Origin: Opitutaceae bacterium EW11
GTDB lineage: Bacteria > Verrucomicrobiota > Verrucomicrobiia > Opitutales > Opitutaceae
Length of the DNA stretch: 64,000 bases
Assembly: GCA_003054665.1 (NCBI GenBank)
Contig: QAYY01000012.1
Span: 217,679 to 281,678 of the forward strand
Direction: 5' to 3'
Shown: one piece after another, positions 25,497 to 63,492 of the stretch
Layout: each line of letters opens with the position of its first letter
How positions within the stretch are numbered: position 1 is the first letter of the stretch
The notes under the pieces: generated by a model
Database searches by the model: none
Seen by the model: only the letters and a program-made list of their open reading frames with translations
What the model was told of the DNA's origin: nothing
Made by a program: the position numbers and the translations under genes

Positions 25497-26048
25497 CTAT
25501 TCGGATTTCTCCTGAACGCTGACCACGATTTTGCCCGAGCGAGGCAGTTTGGTCACCAGGCACTCACGATCGGCGCGCTTCTTGCGCGGAGTATAAAGCA
25601 TCCACGCACGCCGCGCTTTGTTAGCCTCGTCCGGATCCGTGAAGGAAAGCTGTGAGCCCTGCTCGAGTTGGACGGCGTAGTATTTGTAGCGGCCGTGCTC
25701 GCGCCAATCGCCTTCGAGGACGACGTCCGGCTTGTCTTCGTTTTCCTTTCGCGGAATGAGCAGCCACACGTCCGGCAGGGTCTGCCGCACGTGAAGACGC
25801 ATCTTGAGCCGGTGACGATCGCAGTAGCGTCGGAAAAGTTTGAAGAACGTCGGATACTCTTTGAGCGAATGAATCCCGATCGTCTGCCCCTTCGCGAGCG
25901 CCTCCACGTAATACTGCTTGTTGGGCTTGATGGGTGCGTTCCGGTCGACAACCGGGAAATCCAGGTACTCGTGCGAGGAAGACTGGCTGACTTTCGGAAG
26001 CGAGAGGGTTGACGAGTTCTTTTTCGAGGCGCGCGAGGTGGAGGGCAT
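25497..26048 (-). CDS. Hypothetical basic protein
   Basis: A 183-residue protein with a Ser/Lys-rich disordered N-terminus (about 1-30) and a strongly basic folded remainder (SLKEYPTFFKLFRRYCDRHRLKMRLHVRQTLPDVWLLIPRKENEDK). It has no membrane segment or recognised motif. The charge suggests nucleic acid or ribosome contact, which is speculation. It is separated from the previous gene by about 50 bp on the same strand, and an inverted repeat with a TTGACA lies 27-65 bp upstream of its start. Confidence 0.6.
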   Translation of the reverse strand: MPSTSRASKKNSSTLSLPKVSQSSSHEYLDFPVVDRNAPIKPNKQYYVEALAKGQTIGIHSLKEYPTFFKLFRRYCDRHRLKMRLHVRQTLPDVWLLIPRKENEDKPDVVLEGDWREHGRYKYYAVQLEQGSQLSFTDPDEANKARRAWMLYTPRKKRADRECLVTKLPRSGKIVVSVQEKSE

Positions 26049-27352: not shown

Positions 27353-29716
27353 TCAGTCGGCTCGGGTGTCTCGGCGCATTCCGCGTAGCACGACGACAGA
27401 CCCCATGAGAACGAGCAGGAACATCACCACTGCGATCGCCGTCGCCCGCCCGACCTGAAACTCCCGGAACATCGTTGAAACCATCAGCGTGCTGAGCACG
27501 TGCGATCCGCTCACGGGATCCTGGGAGGTGAGCAGCCAGATCATCTCAAACGTATTCAGGCCGGCGATGACGATGAATACTGCCGAAGTTACCAACACGT
27601 CCCAGATCAGCGGGACCGTGATGGTGAAGAACTGCCGAAGCGGCGAGGCTCCATCGATCTCGGCGGCTTCGTAGAGCTCCGGGTTGATGCCCTCCATCGC
27701 CGCGAGGTACAGAATCAGGTTAAAGCCGCATGCCATCCAGAGGTAGATGGGGATCAGCGCGTGATAGAGATTCGCCTGGGAAAGCCAGGCGAAGTTACGG
27801 AACGATTGCAGCCATCCGATGCCGGTCCAGTTCCCGAGCTGCACGAGGGTTGTATTCACCAGGCCACCATGCGGATCGTAGGCGTTCATCCAGAGCAGCG
27901 TCGCCGCGATTCCTCCGAGCAGATTCGGGAACAGAAACACGGCACGAAAGAATCGTGCCCCCCAGATTCCACGATGGATCAAGGTCGCCAGAAAGAGCGA
28001 CAACGGCACGACGGCAAGCGTCGGCACGATCATCACGTAGAGGTTGTTTTTGAGCGCGAACCAGAAGGCGTCGCTTTCGAGCAGCAACCACTTGAAGTTG
28101 AACCAACCCGCCCACGCCCGGGGCGTAAAACCATCCCAATGATAGAAGGCCCAAACGAAGGCGGTCAGCGAGGGTAGGATCACGAACGCGCCGAAGAGGA
28201 CGAACGCCGGACCGACGAAGCCCGCAGCAAGCCCGAAGCGGAGCCGCGGATCCGCTCCACTCGCCGCTTGAGCCCCTCGTCGTGGGGGACCCTCTCCGGA
28301 GTCCGGCCGTCTCAGCCGTTTCGTCAAGGAGCGGACAAGAAGTCCGCCGAAAGCGGACAGCAGAACTGCGGCGAAGAGAGTGGCTTTGCCTCGGTGCTTT
28401 GTCGCGACGCGGTTTGGATCCTTGGCACGCGCCACTTCGTTCGCCGCCGCTCGCTCGAGCTCATCGCCAAACTGCTGAGCCGTGATCCGACCCGTGAAGA
28501 GGCGATACCGAGCGTCGGTCATTCCCTGATTGAACAGCGCCATGAAGGGAGCGGACGCTGGCGGGGCAGAGTCGAAAGTAGCGGGAGCGCGCTGCATCAT
28601 CACCGCGATGTCTTTCATCGCCGGCGAGGCGTAGTCGCCCGGGCCCACAGCGCGCAGTGCCACAGGCGCCTGTAGATGCCGGGCGAATGCCTTGGCGCGT
28701 TCACGCGAGGTGAGAAACCGGAAGAAATCGATCGTGGCCCGCTCGCGTGCGGGGTCACCGGTTTCGAACAAGAAATAGTAGCCGGCCTGTGCCTGAATCG
28801 TCGCGGGATCGGTGACTCCGTCCGAAAACACGGGCAGGTTGAAGGCGCCAAGCGCGAAGTCCTTGGGAATCATGTCGCGCATTTCGCTCACGAGCCACGC
28901 GCTGGCCGTCATGGCCGCTCGATGCTCGAGGAACGCCTGCTGGGCCGCCGTGTGTGTCATGCCTTCCCATCCGCTGAGCAAATAGCGCGTCGTGATTCGC
29001 TGCGTGACTTCCGCTGCGCGCACAAAGCGCGGATCGGACCGCGTGCCAGGCTGGAGTTCGTTGTAGGCTCGGAAGCCTTCCGGTCCGACGAGATTGTAGT
29101 GGGCGGCGCGCAGAAAGGCGTCCCCGTACCGCATATACACGCCGGGAAAACTGAGGGGCGGAATCCCCGCCGCGCGCATCGCTTCGCAGAGGGCAAAGAA
29201 TTGGTCCCAGGTGCGCGGCGGTTCCCATCCGTGTTTCGCGAAAAGGGCCCGATCGTAGAAAATCGTCCAGACACCGTACGCGAACGGAACGCCGTAAACA
29301 TGACCACCTTCGCGTTTCCAGCGATCGAGAACGCCCGGCAGGAAGCTGTCTCCCCAGCGTCCATCGCCTTCCCAGTTGGGCCCGTCGAGATAGGGACCGA
29401 GATCCCGGATTTTTCCCGAGGCGATCAGGGTGTCGTAGAGCAGCACCGCGTCGGTGGCGTCTGGATACTGACCGGCGATGACGCGGATGCGCACTTTTTC
29501 GTGGATACGCGGATCTCCGGCGATCGCGACGCGCACCCCCGGGCGCAGTTGCTCGAACTGTCGCGCGGTGTCCTCGAAAAAACCGGCGCCGAAGCCGGCG
29601 GTGAGAATCGGGACGTCGATCTGAATCGGCGTCGTCTCGGAACGGAGCGCGGGCCACGAAATGCACAGCAGGCCTGCCAACGCGAACAGGCAAGAGAGTC
29701 GACGCGTTCCGTGCAT
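27353..29716 (-). CDS. Fused extracellular solute-binding protein and ABC transporter permease (MalF type)
   Basis: A 787-residue fusion. After a signal peptide (LSCLFALAGLLCISWPALRSE) residues about 27-440 are a family-1 sugar-binding protein (VPFAYGVWTIFYDRALFAKHGW, PPRTWDQFFALCEAMRAAGIPPL). A membrane anchor follows at about 446-462, then a basic cytoplasmic linker, then a complete MalF-type permease (about 490-787) with its EAA loop (YEAAEIDGASPLRQFFTITVPL). The start at 29716 has AGGAG a few bases upstream; the longer frame to 29890 is not signal-like. Together with the downstream MalG-type gene it makes a full importer except for the ATPase. The substrate is probably a sugar or oligosaccharide. 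Confidence 0.9.
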   Translation of the reverse strand: MHGTRRLSCLFALAGLLCISWPALRSETTPIQIDVPILTAGFGAGFFEDTARQFEQLRPGVRVAIAGDPRIHEKVRIRVIAGQYPDATDAVLLYDTLIASGKIRDLGPYLDGPNWEGDGRWGDSFLPGVLDRWKREGGHVYGVPFAYGVWTIFYDRALFAKHGWEPPRTWDQFFALCEAMRAAGIPPLSFPGVYMRYGDAFLRAAHYNLVGPEGFRAYNELQPGTRSDPRFVRAAEVTQRITTRYLLSGWEGMTHTAAQQAFLEHRAAMTASAWLVSEMRDMIPKDFALGAFNLPVFSDGVTDPATIQAQAGYYFLFETGDPARERATIDFFRFLTSRERAKAFARHLQAPVALRAVGPGDYASPAMKDIAVMMQRAPATFDSAPPASAPFMALFNQGMTDARYRLFTGRITAQQFGDELERAAANEVARAKDPNRVATKHRGKATLFAAVLLSAFGGLLVRSLTKRLRRPDSGEGPPRRGAQAASGADPRLRFGLAAGFVGPAFVLFGAFVILPSLTAFVWAFYHWDGFTPRAWAGWFNFKWLLLESDAFWFALKNNLYVMIVPTLAVVPLSLFLATLIHRGIWGARFFRAVFLFPNLLGGIAATLLWMNAYDPHGGLVNTTLVQLGNWTGIGWLQSFRNFAWLSQANLYHALIPIYLWMACGFNLILYLAAMEGINPELYEAAEIDGASPLRQFFTITVPLIWDVLVTSAVFIVIAGLNTFEMIWLLTSQDPVSGSHVLSTLMVSTMFREFQVGRATAIAVVMFLLVLMGSVVVLRGMRRDTRAD

Positions 29717-29897
29717 GGCTTCTCCTGCGGCGCGATCGCGGCGATGGCAAGCGCTGGCGTTCGGCGGCCGTCCGCGGTTGGCCGAGATGCCACAGGAACG
29801 TGACGCCAGCGTCTTTGGGGCGTCACGAAAGCCGGGTCTCATGGCGCCCAGCGCCGAACGCATCACGCCGGCGCGAATTCCACACAACACCTATCCC

Positions 29898-31626: not shown

Positions 31627-32583
31627 TTAGATTCCGGCCGCGGAGGCGCGGATTTGATCTGCGCTCACGCAGGGGCGTGGCGGTCGCGCCGGTGAGCGGC
31701 ACGAGCGCTCCTCTTTTTCGAGCGACTCCAGGGCAGCTCGAGCGCGCACATGACGATCGAGGTCCAGAGCAGCCACCGCTGCTCTCACTTCCGCCTCTGC
31801 AGCGAGCAAACGTTGGGATGGTTCCGCGCGTGCGGGAATCGCCTGGCCCGCCCGCAGTTGTTCGCCAGCGCAGGCGTCTTCCAACAGATCCAGCGCGCGG
31901 TCGGGATTCTTGCGCGCTCCTGGAGTGGAAAACGAAAGCTCCACGGCCGCATGGATGGCGTCGTCGGCGATCTCGAGTTGATGATGCGCTTCGAGGCGAA
32001 CGCGTGCGGCCCGGAGGATCGCTGTCACCGCGGCCCTGTCCGGCTCGGCCACGTGAACAGCCTGAAACCGACGCTGCAGCGCCGGGTCGACGCGGAACAT
32101 CTCCACCGCTTCGGCCGGCGTCGTGGCGCCGATGCACGGCACGTCGCCCCGGGAAAGGACGGGTTTCAGCAGGTTCGCTGCGTCCATCCCGCTTCCGCGC
32201 CCGGCCAAGACGAGGAGATGTATTTCATCGATAAATACGATGGATCGTTCGAGCCGGGCTCGTTCGAGAAATTCCTGAACGCGTTTCTCCAGATCTCCGC
32301 GGTACTGCGTGCCTGCGAGAAGAGCTCCGAGTTGAAGCTCGAAGAGTCTGCGGCCGCGCAGCGCGAGTGGAACCGAACCCGAGACGATGCGTTGGGCCAG
32401 ACCCTCTACCAAAGCGGTTTTCCCCACGCCTGGATCTCCGAGAAGAAGCGGATTGGCCTTTGTCCGCCGGCAGAGGACACGAAGCATGAGATCCACCTCC
32501 GCATCGCGTCCGACCATCGGGTCGAGCTTACCCGACGTCGCCCACGCGGTGAGATCGCGGCCGAGGGTCATGGAATCCGGCAT
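31627..32583 (-). CDS. Stand-alone ClpB-like AAA+ module 1 (D1) protein
   Basis: A 318-residue AAA+ ATPase matching only the first nucleotide-binding domain of ClpB/ClpA/ClpV. It begins at the D1 boundary ([21 protein letters not shown]), with no Clp N-domain. Walker A is GDPGVGKT, the aromatic pore loop is kept (GTQYRG), Walker B is SIVFIDEIH, and the Arg finger region reads [14 protein letters not shown] short coiled segment ([15 protein letters not shown]) replaces the long ClpB middle domain, and the end [15 protein letters not shown] resembles the D1-D2 linker where a ClpB would continue. The missing second module is encoded two genes upstream in the same operon. Confidence 0.85.
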
Positions 32584-32613
32584 GATGGGAGTGGGTCGGA
32601 CCCCACGGAGGTT

Positions 32614-33171
32614 CTATTCTGAACGTTGCACAGCAGCCGTAGCCTTCGACTGCTTGGCGTTCTTCAACTCGCTGTAACGCGACTTCGCCACAAGGAGCAG
32701 CGCCTGCCATTCTTCGAAGGCTTTGGCGCACTCCGGAACCGTTTTGCGGATGAACTCTTCGAGCTGGACCAAACCCTGGGCCCGCAGCCGGCGGCACCCC
32801 TGCTCGTCGAACTGCACCTGGCAGAACGGCGCTTTCTCGAGGTAACCATCGTTTGCACCCGGTGCGGAGGGCCGGAGTTCGGCGTAGAATTTGACCGAGA
32901 CAACCGTGTCGTTCGACAGAGGCTCGCGAGGTCCATCGCCGAACTCGGACAGCATGTATACTCGGTCCCCCACGGGAACGCGGCCCCATTTGCACTCGGT
33001 GCGGATCGCCAATCGCTGCCTTTTCTCGGCAGTCCACGACGCACGCTCTGGAACGAGCGTACAGTAGTAGTCAGTCGTCTCCTTGAGGAGCAGGGGCTCC
33101 TTCGAGAAGTCGAGGATTTCGACGTGAATGAAGGGGTGTGGCGAGGAGGGAGCAGTCATGTGCTGGATCAA
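32614..33171 (-). CDS. Hypothetical protein between the two split AAA+ genes
   Basis: A 185-residue protein I cannot assign. It has no signal peptide or membrane helix. Visible features are a beta-rich N-terminal half ([29 protein letters not shown], then [26 protein letters not shown]), a loop with Cys ([18 protein letters not shown]) and a helical Lys/Ala-rich C-terminus. An internal Met at codon 5 is an alternative start. It is 22 bp after the D2 gene and 30 bp before the D1 gene, so the three are almost certainly co-transcribed; an adaptor or substrate-recruiting role for the AAA+ pair is an inference. Confidence 0.65.
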
Positions 33172-33193
33172 AAGAGTTGAGGTTCCTGTTTTT

Positions 33194-34210
33194 TCATGCG
33201 GCGGCGGAGCAGGCGGACTGAGGAGCTCCGGCTAGAGCGTCTCGAAAAGGTGCGGAGCGATGCTCGTCGGCGATGCGTACCGCCACGAGTTGCCGGTTGA
33301 GGCGATCTTCCCGAAGGTGAAGGGTGCGGCTGAAACGATCAGACGCCTCCTGATCGTCGTCGCGTGCTGACCAGGGTAGTAGTGCCCGGCCTACTTGTTT
33401 TTCGACGGTGGATCGCAGGTTTCGGGCGCCGAGATCGTGCGTGAAGCCCTCCCGCACCAGAAAGTTCAAGACATTGGCCGCGGCGGCAATCGGCCGGACG
33501 AGGTACTGGCTCTGAACTTCGATCTCCTTCTCGAGAAGCCGGCGCGTGATCTCGCGTTGCACGTCGTAACTCAGCCGATTCATCACGATGCGGGCGTCGA
33601 AACGTGCCAGCGTTTCTTTCCGAAATCGTTTTGCCGCCTGAGCGAGCACCTCGTCACGCAGAGCGGTGTAGGGGGCGTGCTGAAGATCAGCGGCCCTCGC
33701 CGCGCCGACGTTTGTCGTGATCACGACAAACAGCCGGGTGAGGTCCCGAGTGACCCCGTCGGTGGTGGTGGTGCGAGCGGCGTCGAACGAAAGCAGGATG
33801 GTGACTAGGTCCGCGTACGCTTTCTCGATTTCGTCGAAGAGGAGAAATGCCGTGCCTTGAGGCCCTGCGGCCTCGTTGAGGCGATCGATGGCTTCGCCCA
33901 ACAACGCGGGCTGGCCCGGAGCGCCGAGGAGCCGATGCACCGAATCGGCATGCTGATACTCTGCCATGTCGAAACGATGCAGATGGCGTTCGGCTTCATT
34001 GCCGTACAAATGCCGGGCGGCGAGCCGGACCATCTCCGTCTTGCCGGTGCCCGTCGGCCCAGCGAGCAGGATCATGCCCTTCGTGCGTTCAGGGCGCGGG
34101 CGACCTTCGAGGGCCAGCGCGACGGCGGTGGCGAACTCCCGGACAGCTTCTTCCTGCCCCAATAGTGACTCATCCAACCAACGGGAGAGCCTCTCTAGCA
34201 AACTGGCCAT
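33194..34210 (-). CDS. Stand-alone ClpB-like AAA+ module 2 (D2) protein
   Basis: A 338-residue AAA+ ATPase corresponding to the second domain of ClpB-type proteins. It starts at the D2 boundary (LLGQEEAVREFATAV). Walker A is GPTGTGKT, Walker B is AFLLFDEIEKAYAD, sensor 1 Asn is in VVITTNVGAA, the Arg finger is in ETLARFDARIVMNRL and the sensor 2 block is LGARNLRSTVEKQVGRAL. The usual tyrosine pore loop (GYVGY after the GAP motif) is absent: the sequence reads LLGAPGQPALLGEAI. No IGL/IGF loop for ClpP docking is seen. A C-terminal tail of about 50 residues follows the AAA+ core. It is the first gene of the operon. Confidence 0.85.
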   Translation of the reverse strand: MASLLERLSRWLDESLLGQEEAVREFATAVALALEGRPRPERTKGMILLAGPTGTGKTEMVRLAARHLYGNEAERHLHRFDMAEYQHADSVHRLLGAPGQPALLGEAIDRLNEAAGPQGTAFLLFDEIEKAYADLVTILLSFDAARTTTTDGVTRDLTRLFVVITTNVGAARAADLQHAPYTALRDEVLAQAAKRFRKETLARFDARIVMNRLSYDVQREITRRLLEKEIEVQSQYLVRPIAAAANVLNFLVREGFTHDLGARNLRSTVEKQVGRALLPWSARDDDQEASDRFSRTLHLREDRLNRQLVAVRIADEHRSAPFRDALAGAPQSACSAAA

Positions 34211-60470: not shown

Positions 60471-61184
60471 ATGGCAGAGGAGTCGAAGGGAGCGGAGGGA
60501 GTAACTCGGCAGACGCCGCGCGAGGGAGACAGTCCCCGTGGGCGTCCGCCGTTTACCCCTTCCAGGATATTGCTGAGTGGGCACGAGAAAACGCTGAGAG
60601 ACCGGACCATCACGTTGGGAATCCTGACCATCGGTTTGTTCGCGATACTCTGGACGATCGTCGCGGTGCGCGGGGCGCAGCGGGTCTTCGTCATCGATCC
60701 TTTGGGCGGCGTTGTGCAGGGCCCGCTCGAACCGCTGTCGTCGAGTAGGGGCTATTTCACCATCACCAGCATCAACGCTGTGCAGGCCGCGTTTCAGCGG
60801 TCGGCTGCCGGCTTCGATCTGCCGGAGATGGTGCCGCTCTACTATTCGGCCAAAGCCCGACGCACGCTCGACGATGACACTTCGCGAAGGACGGAAGATT
60901 TTCGACGTCGGCATCTCACGACGAAACCGGTGATCGAGAGCATCACGCCGCCGGAACCGGCTGGAAACGGTCGCATCGTCCGCGTCACCGGTCGCCTGCA
61001 ATGCACCGGCGCTGTCAATGGCCGCGTGTTCTATGAGGAGCCGGGCTACGAGATGCTTCTCGTCTTCCGTCCCAATTCCGATCTCGGCAACAAGGCAGCT
61101 CTCCCGTGGGTGGTGGACGAGGTCGACTTGGCGCTCGGAGATCAGGAAATCGAAGGCCTCCGCGCCAAGAACCGGCTCAAATGA
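60471..61184 (+). CDS. VirB8/TraE-like membrane protein (putative type IV secretion component)
   Basis: A 237-residue protein with a charged cytoplasmic N-terminus (about 1-46), one membrane helix (ITLGILTIGLFAILWTIVAV, about 47-66) and a periplasmic domain (VFVIDPLGGVVQGPLEPL, then RGYFTITSINAVQAAFQRSAAGFDLPE). This topology, length and position before VirB9- and VirB10-like genes fit VirB8/TraE. Sequence similarity is not directly recognisable, so the call leans on context. Its stop overlaps the next start (ATGA). Confidence 0.6.
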   Translation: MAEESKGAEGVTRQTPREGDSPRGRPPFTPSRILLSGHEKTLRDRTITLGILTIGLFAILWTIVAVRGAQRVFVIDPLGGVVQGPLEPLSSSRGYFTITSINAVQAAFQRSAAGFDLPEMVPLYYSAKARRTLDDDTSRRTEDFRRRHLTTKPVIESITPPEPAGNGRIVRVTGRLQCTGAVNGRVFYEEPGYEMLLVFRPNSDLGNKAALPWVVDEVDLALGDQEIEGLRAKNRLK

Positions 61185-62278
61185 AGGTGTACCGTGCTTG
61201 GTTTGCTCTGGCCTTGAGCTGGATGTCCGCCGGTCTGGCGATCGATTTGTGGGGAGCCGAAAAACCGGTTGGCGCCGACGTTGTGAGACGTGTCGAAATC
61301 GATCCGGCGACGCCGGTCTTCATTCCCGTTCACCCGCGGATCGCGACAACCGTCAGCTTTCCCCGGCCGATCGGCGAACCGATGGGCACGGGCTTTGTTG
61401 AGGCGGAGGCGTTTCAGAAGGCGATGTCGGAAGGGAAAACCGTCGGTGGGCGTGGCGAGTACCTGATTACGTTTTCGCAGGGGGATGCGTTTTTCACGGT
61501 GCAGCCGATGCAGCAGAGCGAGCTGCTCAACCTGAATGTACCCTTCGAAGGCGAAACAGTAGTCTTGTTCTTTTATCTGGTCGAACAGCCCCTGGCGGCC
61601 GTCGCCAGTTTGAACTTCATCGATAAACCGGTTTCCCGCGTCGGGAAGAACGGCCCGGCGGGCACACTCAAAAACCCCGGTGCGAGCGGGGAGCGCGGAG
61701 GAGATGTTTCTCGGCCCGTCGTGACCGGCATTCTCCGGAGCGAAACGGCTCCGGCGCCCTCATCGCTACCCGCCTCTCCCGCACGGCTGGAAGGGCTGCT
61801 TCGAAAACTGAAACTCGTGCATGCTGCGCATGCCGGCTCCGAGCTGGACGATCTGGCATCCGCGTTGAAGCTGAATGTCGCGATCTCCGCGGCCGAAGAT
61901 CCTCAATCGCTCGAAATTCCGCATCCCGTCAATCGATCGGCGCTTTTCGAGTTGGTGATCCTCCGTGCGGCCCGGGACTCGGCGTTGGATAGCGTGGGTT
62001 TCGTCACGCTGTTTCGAAACACCTCCGAGAAAGAAATCGTATTCGATCTGCGGACACTCTCGGTTCGATGCGGCGCGGCGTTGTACACCGCGCGCGTGAT
62101 CGATGCGCCGGCCTCGCTCAGGCCTGGCGAGGTGCTGCCCGGCTACTTCGTCATCGTCGGTGCGGACGATGGGCGTCCGGCTCATTTGCTGCCGGGGAAC
62201 GACTGGCGCGTTTCTGTCGATCTGGTGAGTCCTGGCAGTTCACCTGACTTGTGGAGTGGCGAGGAGGAGGAAGAATGA
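61181..62278 (+). CDS. VirB9/TraK-like exported protein (putative type IV secretion component)
   Basis: A 365-residue protein with a signal peptide (WFALALSWMSAGLAIDLWGAE). The N-terminal half looks like a VirB9/TraK beta-domain (VVRRVEIDPATPVFIPVHPRIATTVSFPRPIGEPMG, then EYLITFSQGDAFFTVQPM), and the C-terminal half has a second beta-sandwich (VTLFRNTSEKEIVFDLRTLSVR, then DWRVSVDLVSPG). The central part (about 150-230) is Ala/Pro/Gly-rich. ATG 61181 overlaps the stop of the VirB8-like gene, and its stop overlaps the start of the VirB10-like gene. The identification is by fold impression and gene order. Confidence 0.55.
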   Translation: MKVYRAWFALALSWMSAGLAIDLWGAEKPVGADVVRRVEIDPATPVFIPVHPRIATTVSFPRPIGEPMGTGFVEAEAFQKAMSEGKTVGGRGEYLITFSQGDAFFTVQPMQQSELLNLNVPFEGETVVLFFYLVEQPLAAVASLNFIDKPVSRVGKNGPAGTLKNPGASGERGGDVSRPVVTGILRSETAPAPSSLPASPARLEGLLRKLKLVHAAHAGSELDDLASALKLNVAISAAEDPQSLEIPHPVNRSALFELVILRAARDSALDSVGFVTLFRNTSEKEIVFDLRTLSVRCGAALYTARVIDAPASLRPGEVLPGYFVIVGADDGRPAHLLPGNDWRVSVDLVSPGSSPDLWSGEEEEE

Positions 62279-63492
62279 TTTCCGGTTTTCTCAGGACAAA
62301 GATCGGTTTCGTGCTCCTGGTCCTGCTGGTCGTCGGTGTCTTTGCGGCCCTGTCGACGCTGAAGAAACGCCGCGCGGCACATGCCCCCGGCGCGGCATCG
62401 GTGACGACGGTTGCCGGGCAATCGGGTGCGGAAGATGCGGCGATGCTCAAGCGCGCCCAGGAGAGTTCACGTGCTCGGGCTGAGGATGTTCGCACCGAAC
62501 AGGAGGTGAGGCGCAACGTGACGTCGACCTCGGATCAATATGGCACGCTCTATCGCCGGCGCGCGGTGACTTCTCCGGTCGAGGGCCAATACGTGCCGCC
62601 CGATCGCGCACGAACCGAAGACGGTGCAACCGACGCCGGTTCGGTCCAGCCGTCGCTGCGTATTCACGGTCGGAAGTCCGCGAGCGACGACGCTCGCGGC
62701 CCCGTCGCTCGGGCGGTCGGCTCGATCATGCCGAACCTGCCGGGGCTCCAGAATCTGCCGAAGAATCCGTTCGAGTCGCCGTTCCCCGTGGAGGGGATCT
62801 CGGGAGCGAAATCGCGCCGGCACCGCGTGCCGCCGGAGCGCTTTGTCCCTTTCGGGCGGTTGATCAAAGCCGAACTCGTAATGACGTTGGAGTCGTCTTC
62901 GGAGGCGATGCCGCTTGTCGGCCTTATCACCGAGCCGGTGTACAACAACGGCAGACTTGTGATTCCGGCCGGTACGGAGATTCACAGCACCGCCCGACCG
63001 AACAGCATGCGCGACCGCATCGTGTCCGGGGAAGAGTGGCACATGGTTTTCCCTCGGGAGGGCGCGAAACCGAATGGCCGGCAGCTGCAATTCTCCGCGG
63101 TGGCGCTCGACCGCGAGGATCAAGAGGCGAACGGACTTGCTTGGCCCGTCACGGATGGCTCCTACGGATTGCGCGGACGGGTCCTTCGAAATGGTCAGAC
63201 ACAGGAGGAGATCATGGTTTTTGCCGCCGAGGCTCTGAAAGCCGCCAGTGCCACCATGATGGAGCGCGAGACGACGGTCGCCGGCACTCGACTCCAGGCG
63301 AATGCCACGAACGCGGCGCTGGCCGGAGGGCAGGCGGTGCTCGCGCGTGTTGCCGAACGGCTCATGCGGGAAATCGAGATGAACGGCGCCTATGTGCAGG
63401 TGCCCGCCGGAAAACAGTTTTACCTCTATCCCAAGCAAGTGATCGACCCCGATAGCGCCGACATTCCGACGCGCGAGGTGGTTGAGCAGTAA
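62275..63492 (+). CDS. VirB10/TraB/TrbI-like protein (putative type IV secretion scaffold)
   Basis: A 405-residue protein with one N-terminal membrane helix (GFVLLVLLVVGVFAALS, about 11-27), a long charged and Pro/Arg-rich linker (about 28-175) and a C-terminal beta-barrel domain resembling VirB10 (GRLIKAELVMTLESSSEAMPLVGLITEPVYNNGRLVIPAGTEIHS, then VPAGKQFYLYPKQVID). In VirB10 this domain spans the outer-membrane core complex. The GAGGAGGAGG just before ATG 62275 is a strong ribosome-binding site. The gene overlaps the VirB9-like stop by 4 bp. Confidence 0.75.
   Translation: MISGFLRTKIGFVLLVLLVVGVFAALSTLKKRRAAHAPGAASVTTVAGQSGAEDAAMLKRAQESSRARAEDVRTEQEVRRNVTSTSDQYGTLYRRRAVTSPVEGQYVPPDRARTEDGATDAGSVQPSLRIHGRKSASDDARGPVARAVGSIMPNLPGLQNLPKNPFESPFPVEGISGAKSRRHRVPPERFVPFGRLIKAELVMTLESSSEAMPLVGLITEPVYNNGRLVIPAGTEIHSTARPNSMRDRIVSGEEWHMVFPREGAKPNGRQLQFSAVALDREDQEANGLAWPVTDGSYGLRGRVLRNGQTQEEIMVFAAEALKAASATMMERETTVAGTRLQANATNAALAGGQAVLARVAERLMREIEMNGAYVQVPAGKQFYLYPKQVIDPDSADIPTREVVEQ

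Follow-up and report, generated by a model that had tools for sequence, protein, structure and literature searches.

In ClpB (profile TIGR03346) a single chain carries an N-domain, a first AAA+ module (D1), a middle domain and a second AAA+ module (D2). Another member of the Clp family, ClpV, serves the type VI secretion system (T6SS). The locus described here, found in the genome of Opitutaceae bacterium EW11, departs from the one-chain architecture: D1 and D2 are encoded by separate genes, D2 first, and an orphan gene lies between them. This trio belongs to a stretch of 64,000 nucleotides (contig QAYY01000012.1, positions 217,679 to 281,678), hereafter called the window, and its comparison with relatives in 150 genomes of Opitutaceae connects the D2 gene with genes of conjugation.

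Passages of PMC12857230 list three ATPases, VirD4, VirB4 and VirB11, in conjugative type IV secretion systems (T4SS) of Gram-negative bacteria. Relaxases must unfold to pass such a system, and the unfoldase responsible is called unclear in a passage of PMC5826034; passages of PMC10359608 name no unfoldase of T4SS. A term search of two T4SS reviews (PMC12857230 and PMC12624023) returned no word beginning with “Clp”, and the literature searched yielded no account of a D2-type Clp ATPase with a part in conjugation. On IncI plasmids (R64, TP114), as described in a passage of PMC9045228, T4SS is accompanied by a type IV pilus.

Domain content of the three genes

According to profile searches, the D1 and D2 genes are separately encoded Clp D1-type and D2-type AAA+ modules. 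On the ClpB profile window D1 covers positions 160–442 (E 1e-82, 279 bits) and window D2 positions 558–825 (E 4e-40, 138 bits), both to be read against a full-length cut-off of 1232; D2 also matches positions 448–715 of the ClpA profile (E 3e-40), and D1 the ClpV model (E 2e-79). Pfam registered AAA (E 6e-16) and AAA_lid_9 (E 2e-12) in D1, AAA_2 (E 6e-22) and ClpB_D2-small (E 4e-5) in D2, and the search of PDB sequences gave the same division. The first-pass annotation of this DNA, made from its letters, had recognized here two Clp nucleotide-binding modules, transcribed D2 first with the orphan between them. Its coordinates, order and module assignment were all confirmed, and all three genes are on the minus strand. 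It had also considered the Clp N-domain and the middle domain as missing; for the N-domain this held, while profile matches of the trio leave uncovered most, not all, of the middle domain. The genes are separated by 22 bases (D2–orphan) and 30 bases (orphan–D1).

The motif table of stand-alone D2 proteins shows the ATPase motifs of Clp/Hsp100 proteins (Walker A, Walker B, sensor 1, arginine finger, sensor 2) to be conserved, and in the alignment of D1 they form invariant columns. Both ATP sites thus look intact, as had been annotated. The T2SSE domain (PF00437), which characterizes VirB11 and GspE, reached in D2 15.5 bits (E 0.007) with a cut-off of 24.9. For the orphan, noted from the beginning as unrecognized, searches of Pfam (best E 0.08), NCBIfam, PADLOC and PHROGs found nothing significant. 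Its AlphaFold model is poor (mean predicted local distance difference test, pLDDT, 54), and the fold search with this low-confidence model brought no match (best E 0.46). A role in anti-phage defence was considered for the trio and rejected: in PADLOC D1 and D2 matched only generic AAA entries, and weakly (best E about 2e-8), while the orphan matched nothing.

The D2 clade and its linkage to conjugation genes

Beside full-length Clp genes, many D2 genes in short frames were registered in the family, with several copies in some genomes. At least 70 D2 matches in frames below 550 residues, the window's own included, were picked by eye, weaker stand-alone D2 genes lying outside this set. From the 69 other loci taken, L261 and L262 were dropped as ClpB fragments with the pore loop GYVG, and 67 loci were counted. 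One of the fragments (genome G109, L262:7083-9663) comes from a ClpB interrupted between its two modules, a simple split. In such an ordinary broken ClpB D1 precedes D2 and the GYVG loop is kept, whereas in the window D2 comes first and GY[VI]G is lost. The stretch inspected around each D2 extends mostly about 8 kb to each side, with genes called by profiles built in this analysis.

In the tree of 56 D2 domains a branch with support 1.000 parts the 41 stand-alone ones, that of the window among them, from the 15 controls of ClpB/ClpC type, and by this phylogeny window D2 is a member of a stand-alone ClpB-D2 AAA+ clade. Its orthologs, 51–52% identical, were found in three genomes (G006, G057 and G014). 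The group of window D2 is sister (support 0.978) to D2 domains from G113, G147, G130 and G071, which adjoin VirB8–10-like genes.

Conjugation or T4SS genes (relaxase, coupling protein or VirB-type) accompany D2 in 66 of the 67 other stand-alone loci, one of the 66 (L250) having a relaxase fragment only, and the sole exception (L111) is a contig of 7 kb. VirB8-like genes were counted in 42 loci, VirB6-like in 39, VirB9-like in 38, VirB4-like in 37, VirB5-like in 35, VirB10-like in 30, coupling protein in 28 and relaxase in 25. Relaxase and coupling protein frequently stand ahead of D2, coupling protein being its direct upstream neighbor on the same strand at 22 loci, and at 19 loci relaxase and/or coupling protein are the only such genes in the stretch. 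Pfam supports, in examples, TrwC relaxase, TrwB/TraG coupling protein and TrbI (VirB10), and weakly VirB4 and VirB6. By genetic linkage D2 of this clade is a candidate component of conjugative T4SS. A peculiar case is G045 with at least eight stand-alone D2 genes, where six of eight loci have relaxase and/or coupling protein and no VirB genes in the stretch, which suggests many mobilizable elements.

Outside Opitutaceae the stand-alone D2 was sought in plasmids (40 of 2086 matches) and in viral contigs. On viral contigs, scanned as a control without selection for context, the best 80 of at least 584 D2 relatives contained one stand-alone D2 (L154, 313 residues), located beside VirB6/8/9/10-like genes; the remaining 79 were D1-fused Clp or pieces at contig ends, with no T4SS gene in the stretch. 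Two short frames with a weak match to the D2 profile (L181, E 8e-6; L229, E 1e-6) were not counted as D2 proteins. The plasmid search, made with the second D2 of the EW11 genome (contig C20), found among the 40 of 2086 matches listed one stand-alone-like record, from Termitidicoccus, the others being mostly annotated as ClpB/Clp or lacking a feature.

Two plasmids with the D2 set can be named. The complete plasmid of Opitutaceae bacterium TAV5 (CP007054.1, 99,831 bp, MOBF) carries, by in-house profiles, a stand-alone D2, VirB4/6/8/9/10, coupling protein, two GspE-like genes, GspF and secretin, all annotated as hypothetical. Its D2 (L153:1049-2101, OPIT5_00010) looks circularly permuted: ClpB_D2-small occupies residues 23–75 ahead of AAA_2 at 157–312, and profile positions 226–287 are met before 8–231. 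On the plasmid of Termitidicoccus mucosus (NZ_CP109797.1, L104) the genes of D2, VirB4, coupling protein and relaxase are all interrupted, each in several frames, as if the conjugation set were in decay; the annotation of this plasmid also lists PilT and T2SSF.

A further feature of the clade concerns its pore loop. The motif GY[VI]G is absent in all 41 stand-alone D2 domains and present in all six Clp controls. The loop is shortened, frequently with the core GLLG, and reads QP[AP]LLG in the sub-clade of the window and GFLG on the TAV5 plasmid. Within the wider set of 70 D2 domains GYVG occurs in the ClpB fragments L261 and L262 only, L250 and L252 being not judged. In D1 the pore-loop tyrosine is retained (GT[QSP]YRG, all four D1 proteins). 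With its ATPase motifs conserved and GY[VI]G missing, the D2 ring probably hydrolyses ATP without the usual grip on a polypeptide.

Relatives of the trio and the set of the window genome

The orphan was found in four of the 150 family genomes, that of the window (G000), G006, G014 and G057, and in two of 387 genomes of the phylum (G000 and G006); a scan of genome contigs gave two records with relatives, JAJXVO010000048.1 and JAHFTI010000036.1. Orthologs in G006, G057 and G014 are 38–42% identical and directly follow D2. Stand-alone D1 was registered in the same four genomes among the matches listed, with local identity to window D1 of 52% (G006), 54% (G057) and 52% (G014), or 44–49% over the alignment. 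D1 matches were listed in full for 19 genomes, 13 having more than two of them and six chosen for their D2 loci; these otherwise contained full-length Clp frames and partial matches, taken as contig-edge or broken genes and not individually checked. Short D1 frames, as in the broken ClpB of G109, could hide in the remaining genomes. That D1, the D2 sub-clade and the orphan were met together in these four genomes suggests that they act in a common function. The first-pass annotation had named conservation of the trio in related genomes as a test of its interpretation; the three genes co-occur in the four genomes, and the order D2–orphan–D1 was seen in the window genome only.

In G006, G057 and G014 D1 is located on another contig than D2, where it closes a cluster GspE (T2SSE)–GspF (T2SSF)–secretin–D1; G057 and G014 are drafts, and separate contigs there are no proof of distance. 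The secretin of this D1 cluster occurs in five of the 150 genomes, the four with the orphan and G124 (31%). D2 and the orphan are found in G006, G057 and G014 together with one more gene, fam12, all three lying in G006 directly upstream of VirB8–10-like genes. The fam12 gene of the window shows local identity of 29.8–32.9% to these D2-adjacent genes (L036, L037, L038). Its model (pLDDT 74, predicted template modelling score 0.41) gave I-DmoI as the best Foldseek match (E 8e-4, template modelling score 0.26) and SpoVS/Alba-like chains in VIA-align with a best Z of 5.6; as Z below 8 may mean a common arrangement, no fold is claimed. At a further separate place G006 and G057 have a relaxase near a coupling-protein-like gene, and no TrwC relaxase was found in G014.

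A correspondence between the D1 cluster and the D2 loci appears further downstream. In 14 genomes examined for it, T2SSE was met at a distance of about 13–18 kb from D2 at 11 loci; eight of these D2-bearing T4SS loci, chosen for this nearby gene, were followed downstream. All eight have GspE, GspF and secretin beyond VirB10, the three being confirmed by Pfam for L129.

The window genome has its own parts of such a set (Table 1). The VirB8-like and VirB9-like genes gave no Pfam match. An ortholog of the D1-cluster secretin is located near a coupling protein with one small frame between them (C4:187013-190653); C4 is the window's own contig, this pair is about 59 kb from D1, and T4SS-related genes are spread over about 100 kb of C4. 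The smaller contig C20 (L035, L072; 32.9 kb) carries MobF relaxase, coupling protein, the second stand-alone D2 and VirB4–10-like genes. Just past the end of the window two more genes follow VirB10, one for an AAA_16-like ATPase of 401 residues (L070:828-2033) and one for a protein of 516 residues with a Secretin_N domain (L070:2180-3730), which has a local match of 35–44% in the G006 cluster.

Table 1. Genes of the trio and related genes in the window (positions counted from its first nucleotide)
Feature	Position	Strand	Length	Remarks
Stand-alone ClpB-D2-type AAA+ ATPase	33194..34210	(-)	338 aa	First gene of the trio
Orphan gene	32614..33171	(-)	185 aa	Between D2 and D1; TTG start, internal ATG possible
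Stand-alone Clp D1-type AAA+ ATPase	31627..32583	(-)	318 aa	
fam12	25497..26048	(-)	183 aa	Homologs directly upstream of D2 in G006, G057, G014
VirB8-like gene	60471..61184	(+)		By order and homology: 41% to the gene after the orphan in G006; in-house profile 2e-72
VirB9-like gene	61106..62278	(+)		38.5% to the G006 counterpart; in-house profile 1e-79
VirB10/TrbI-like gene	62251..63492	(+)		PF03743 TrbI E 6e-12, above cut-off; 54–56% over 210–226 residues to the G006 counterpart

Apart from these genes, a frame of 845 residues within a sugar-type ABC operon of the window (27353-29890) joins SBP_bac_1 to BPD_transp_1, an apparent natural fusion of an extracellular solute-binding protein and a transport permease.

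Possible role of the modules and comparison with known systems

Based on this data one can assume, with a probability of about 60%, that the trio serves as the ATPase part of a conjugation-type apparatus built from T4SS (coupling protein, VirB4–10) and a module resembling type IV pilus/type II secretion (GspE, GspF, secretin), D2 being its recurrent motor. A D2 hexamer would then be placed at the cytoplasmic entrance, beside coupling protein and VirB4, where it may remodel or unfold either a protein substrate, with the MobF relaxase as an obvious candidate, or a subunit of the machine itself. One sub-clade might have gained the orphan and, as a ring of its own, D1, whose pore loop has the normal tyrosine; D1 could provide the grip on a substrate lost from the D2 pore loop, a contact between D1 and D2 may be supposed, and the orphan could act as an adaptor. 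A more specific version, in which D1 and D2 form two rings, the orphan connects them, and the whole acts as a dedicated unfoldase of the relaxase or of other substrates in a hybrid machine of T4SS and type IV pilus, has a low probability.

Several observations weigh against assigning the trio to such a machine. The labels VirB5, VirB8 and VirB9 were given by gene order and homology. D1 is not found in the stretches around the other stand-alone D2 genes, and matches to GspE, GspF and secretin are equally missing there (0 of 67), such genes appearing only further out. Secretins of T4SS loci match the profile of the D1-cluster secretin with E from 2e-16 to 4e-23, and because of this the two modules correspond by gene type, not by proven orthology. 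G124 has relatives of both secretin and GspE and no orphan. The loss of GY[VI]G argues against classic threading of a substrate by D2. In the window genome the VirB8–10-like genes are 26 kb from the trio on the opposite strand, C20 is free of GspE, GspF and secretin matches, the only VirB4 found is that of C20 (37%), and GspE of the D1 cluster has partial matches (at most 40%) with no ortholog found. This genome may therefore have an incomplete machine, one that borrows parts from C20, or a relic.

It is possible, with clearly lower probability, that D1 and D2 act separately, D2 for coupling protein and T4SS, D1 for the pilus/secretin part, and that their joint operon merely brought together parts of one machine. 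Exactly this distribution is seen in three of the four genomes, where the two genes are on different contigs, each by a different module, and the lack of D1 in other D2 loci points the same way; their occurrence in the same four genomes and the tight operon of the window speak against it. A similarly tentative place belongs to the suggestion that the trio and the scattered T4SS genes of the window genome are remnants of an old integrated element, repurposed or decaying. It accounts for the dispersal of these genes along C4 and for the lack, among the genes found, of a dedicated VirB4 or GspE ortholog, and is opposed by the state of D1, D2 and the orphan, which have intact frames, kept motifs and 38–52% identity to their orthologs.

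The first-pass annotation had explained the trio by the division and reordering of one ClpB gene, and a recent event of this kind is not supported: in the tree D2 falls among stand-alone D2 proteins from conjugation loci, in whose stretches no D1 is found, and apart from ClpB/ClpC controls, so that a simple split of ClpB was rejected as the principal explanation. Even in the form of a ClpB-type gene cut at the D1–D2 linker and reordered, with both products together restoring a machine of ClpB type for one dedicated substrate, it is hardly probable. Both halves are indeed Clp modules with intact ATP sites and a cut near the D1–D2 boundary, but the order of the trio is not conserved, and D1 takes its position among ClpB and ClpC with support of 0.44 and 0.89, which does not separate ClpB from ClpC origin. 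Equally improbable, and mostly rejected, is the substitution of D2 for VirB11, the third ATPase of T4SS: although the T4SS of F plasmid is described in a passage of PMC12857230 as functioning without VirB11, and none of seven T2SSE matches of the window genome falls on C4 or C20, T2SSE genes share the D2 loci, being situated at the distance given above in 11 of them and within the same gene cluster in the eight followed.

If D1 and D2 rings bridged in this way indeed form a dedicated unfoldase, they would represent a fourth class of ATPases in conjugation. A Clp-family motor whose gene recurs dozens of times among conjugation genes within a single family of Verrucomicrobiota, often immediately behind coupling protein, is a concrete candidate for unfolding of substrates or remodelling of the machine. 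Loss of the pore loop, the optional D1 ring and the apparently permuted D2 of TAV5 may be considered as natural experiments on dismantling of a two-ring Clp.

With ClpB/Hsp104, ClpA and ClpC the locus shares D1 and D2 modules, Walker A and B motifs, sensors and arginine fingers. It differs from them in having two proteins, no N-domain and most of the middle domain uncovered, and in the D2 clade that lacks GY[VI]G and is linked to conjugation genes. ClpV of T6SS is a full-length double ring, in contrast to the separate D1 and D2 found here. The single D2-type AAA+ module resembles human CLPB/SKD3 and Torsin, both matched by window D2 in the PDB search, which are eukaryotic, unlike window D2. 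Torsin needs a cofactor. SKD3, as a passage of PMC9934407 describes, carries ankyrin repeats. VirB/D4-type T4SS of R388 and pKM101 are similar to D2 loci in MobF relaxase (TrwC), TrwB/TraG coupling protein and VirB10/TrbI, registered by Pfam in examples, and to this set D2 loci add the Clp-D2 ATPase. A conjugation locus with a pilus module has its counterpart in IncI systems of R64 and TP114, which are not known to include a Clp-type ATPase. The combination of T4SS with a type IV pilus is already known from IncI plasmids, and it is the Clp D2 ATPase in conjugation loci that appears new against the literature searched.

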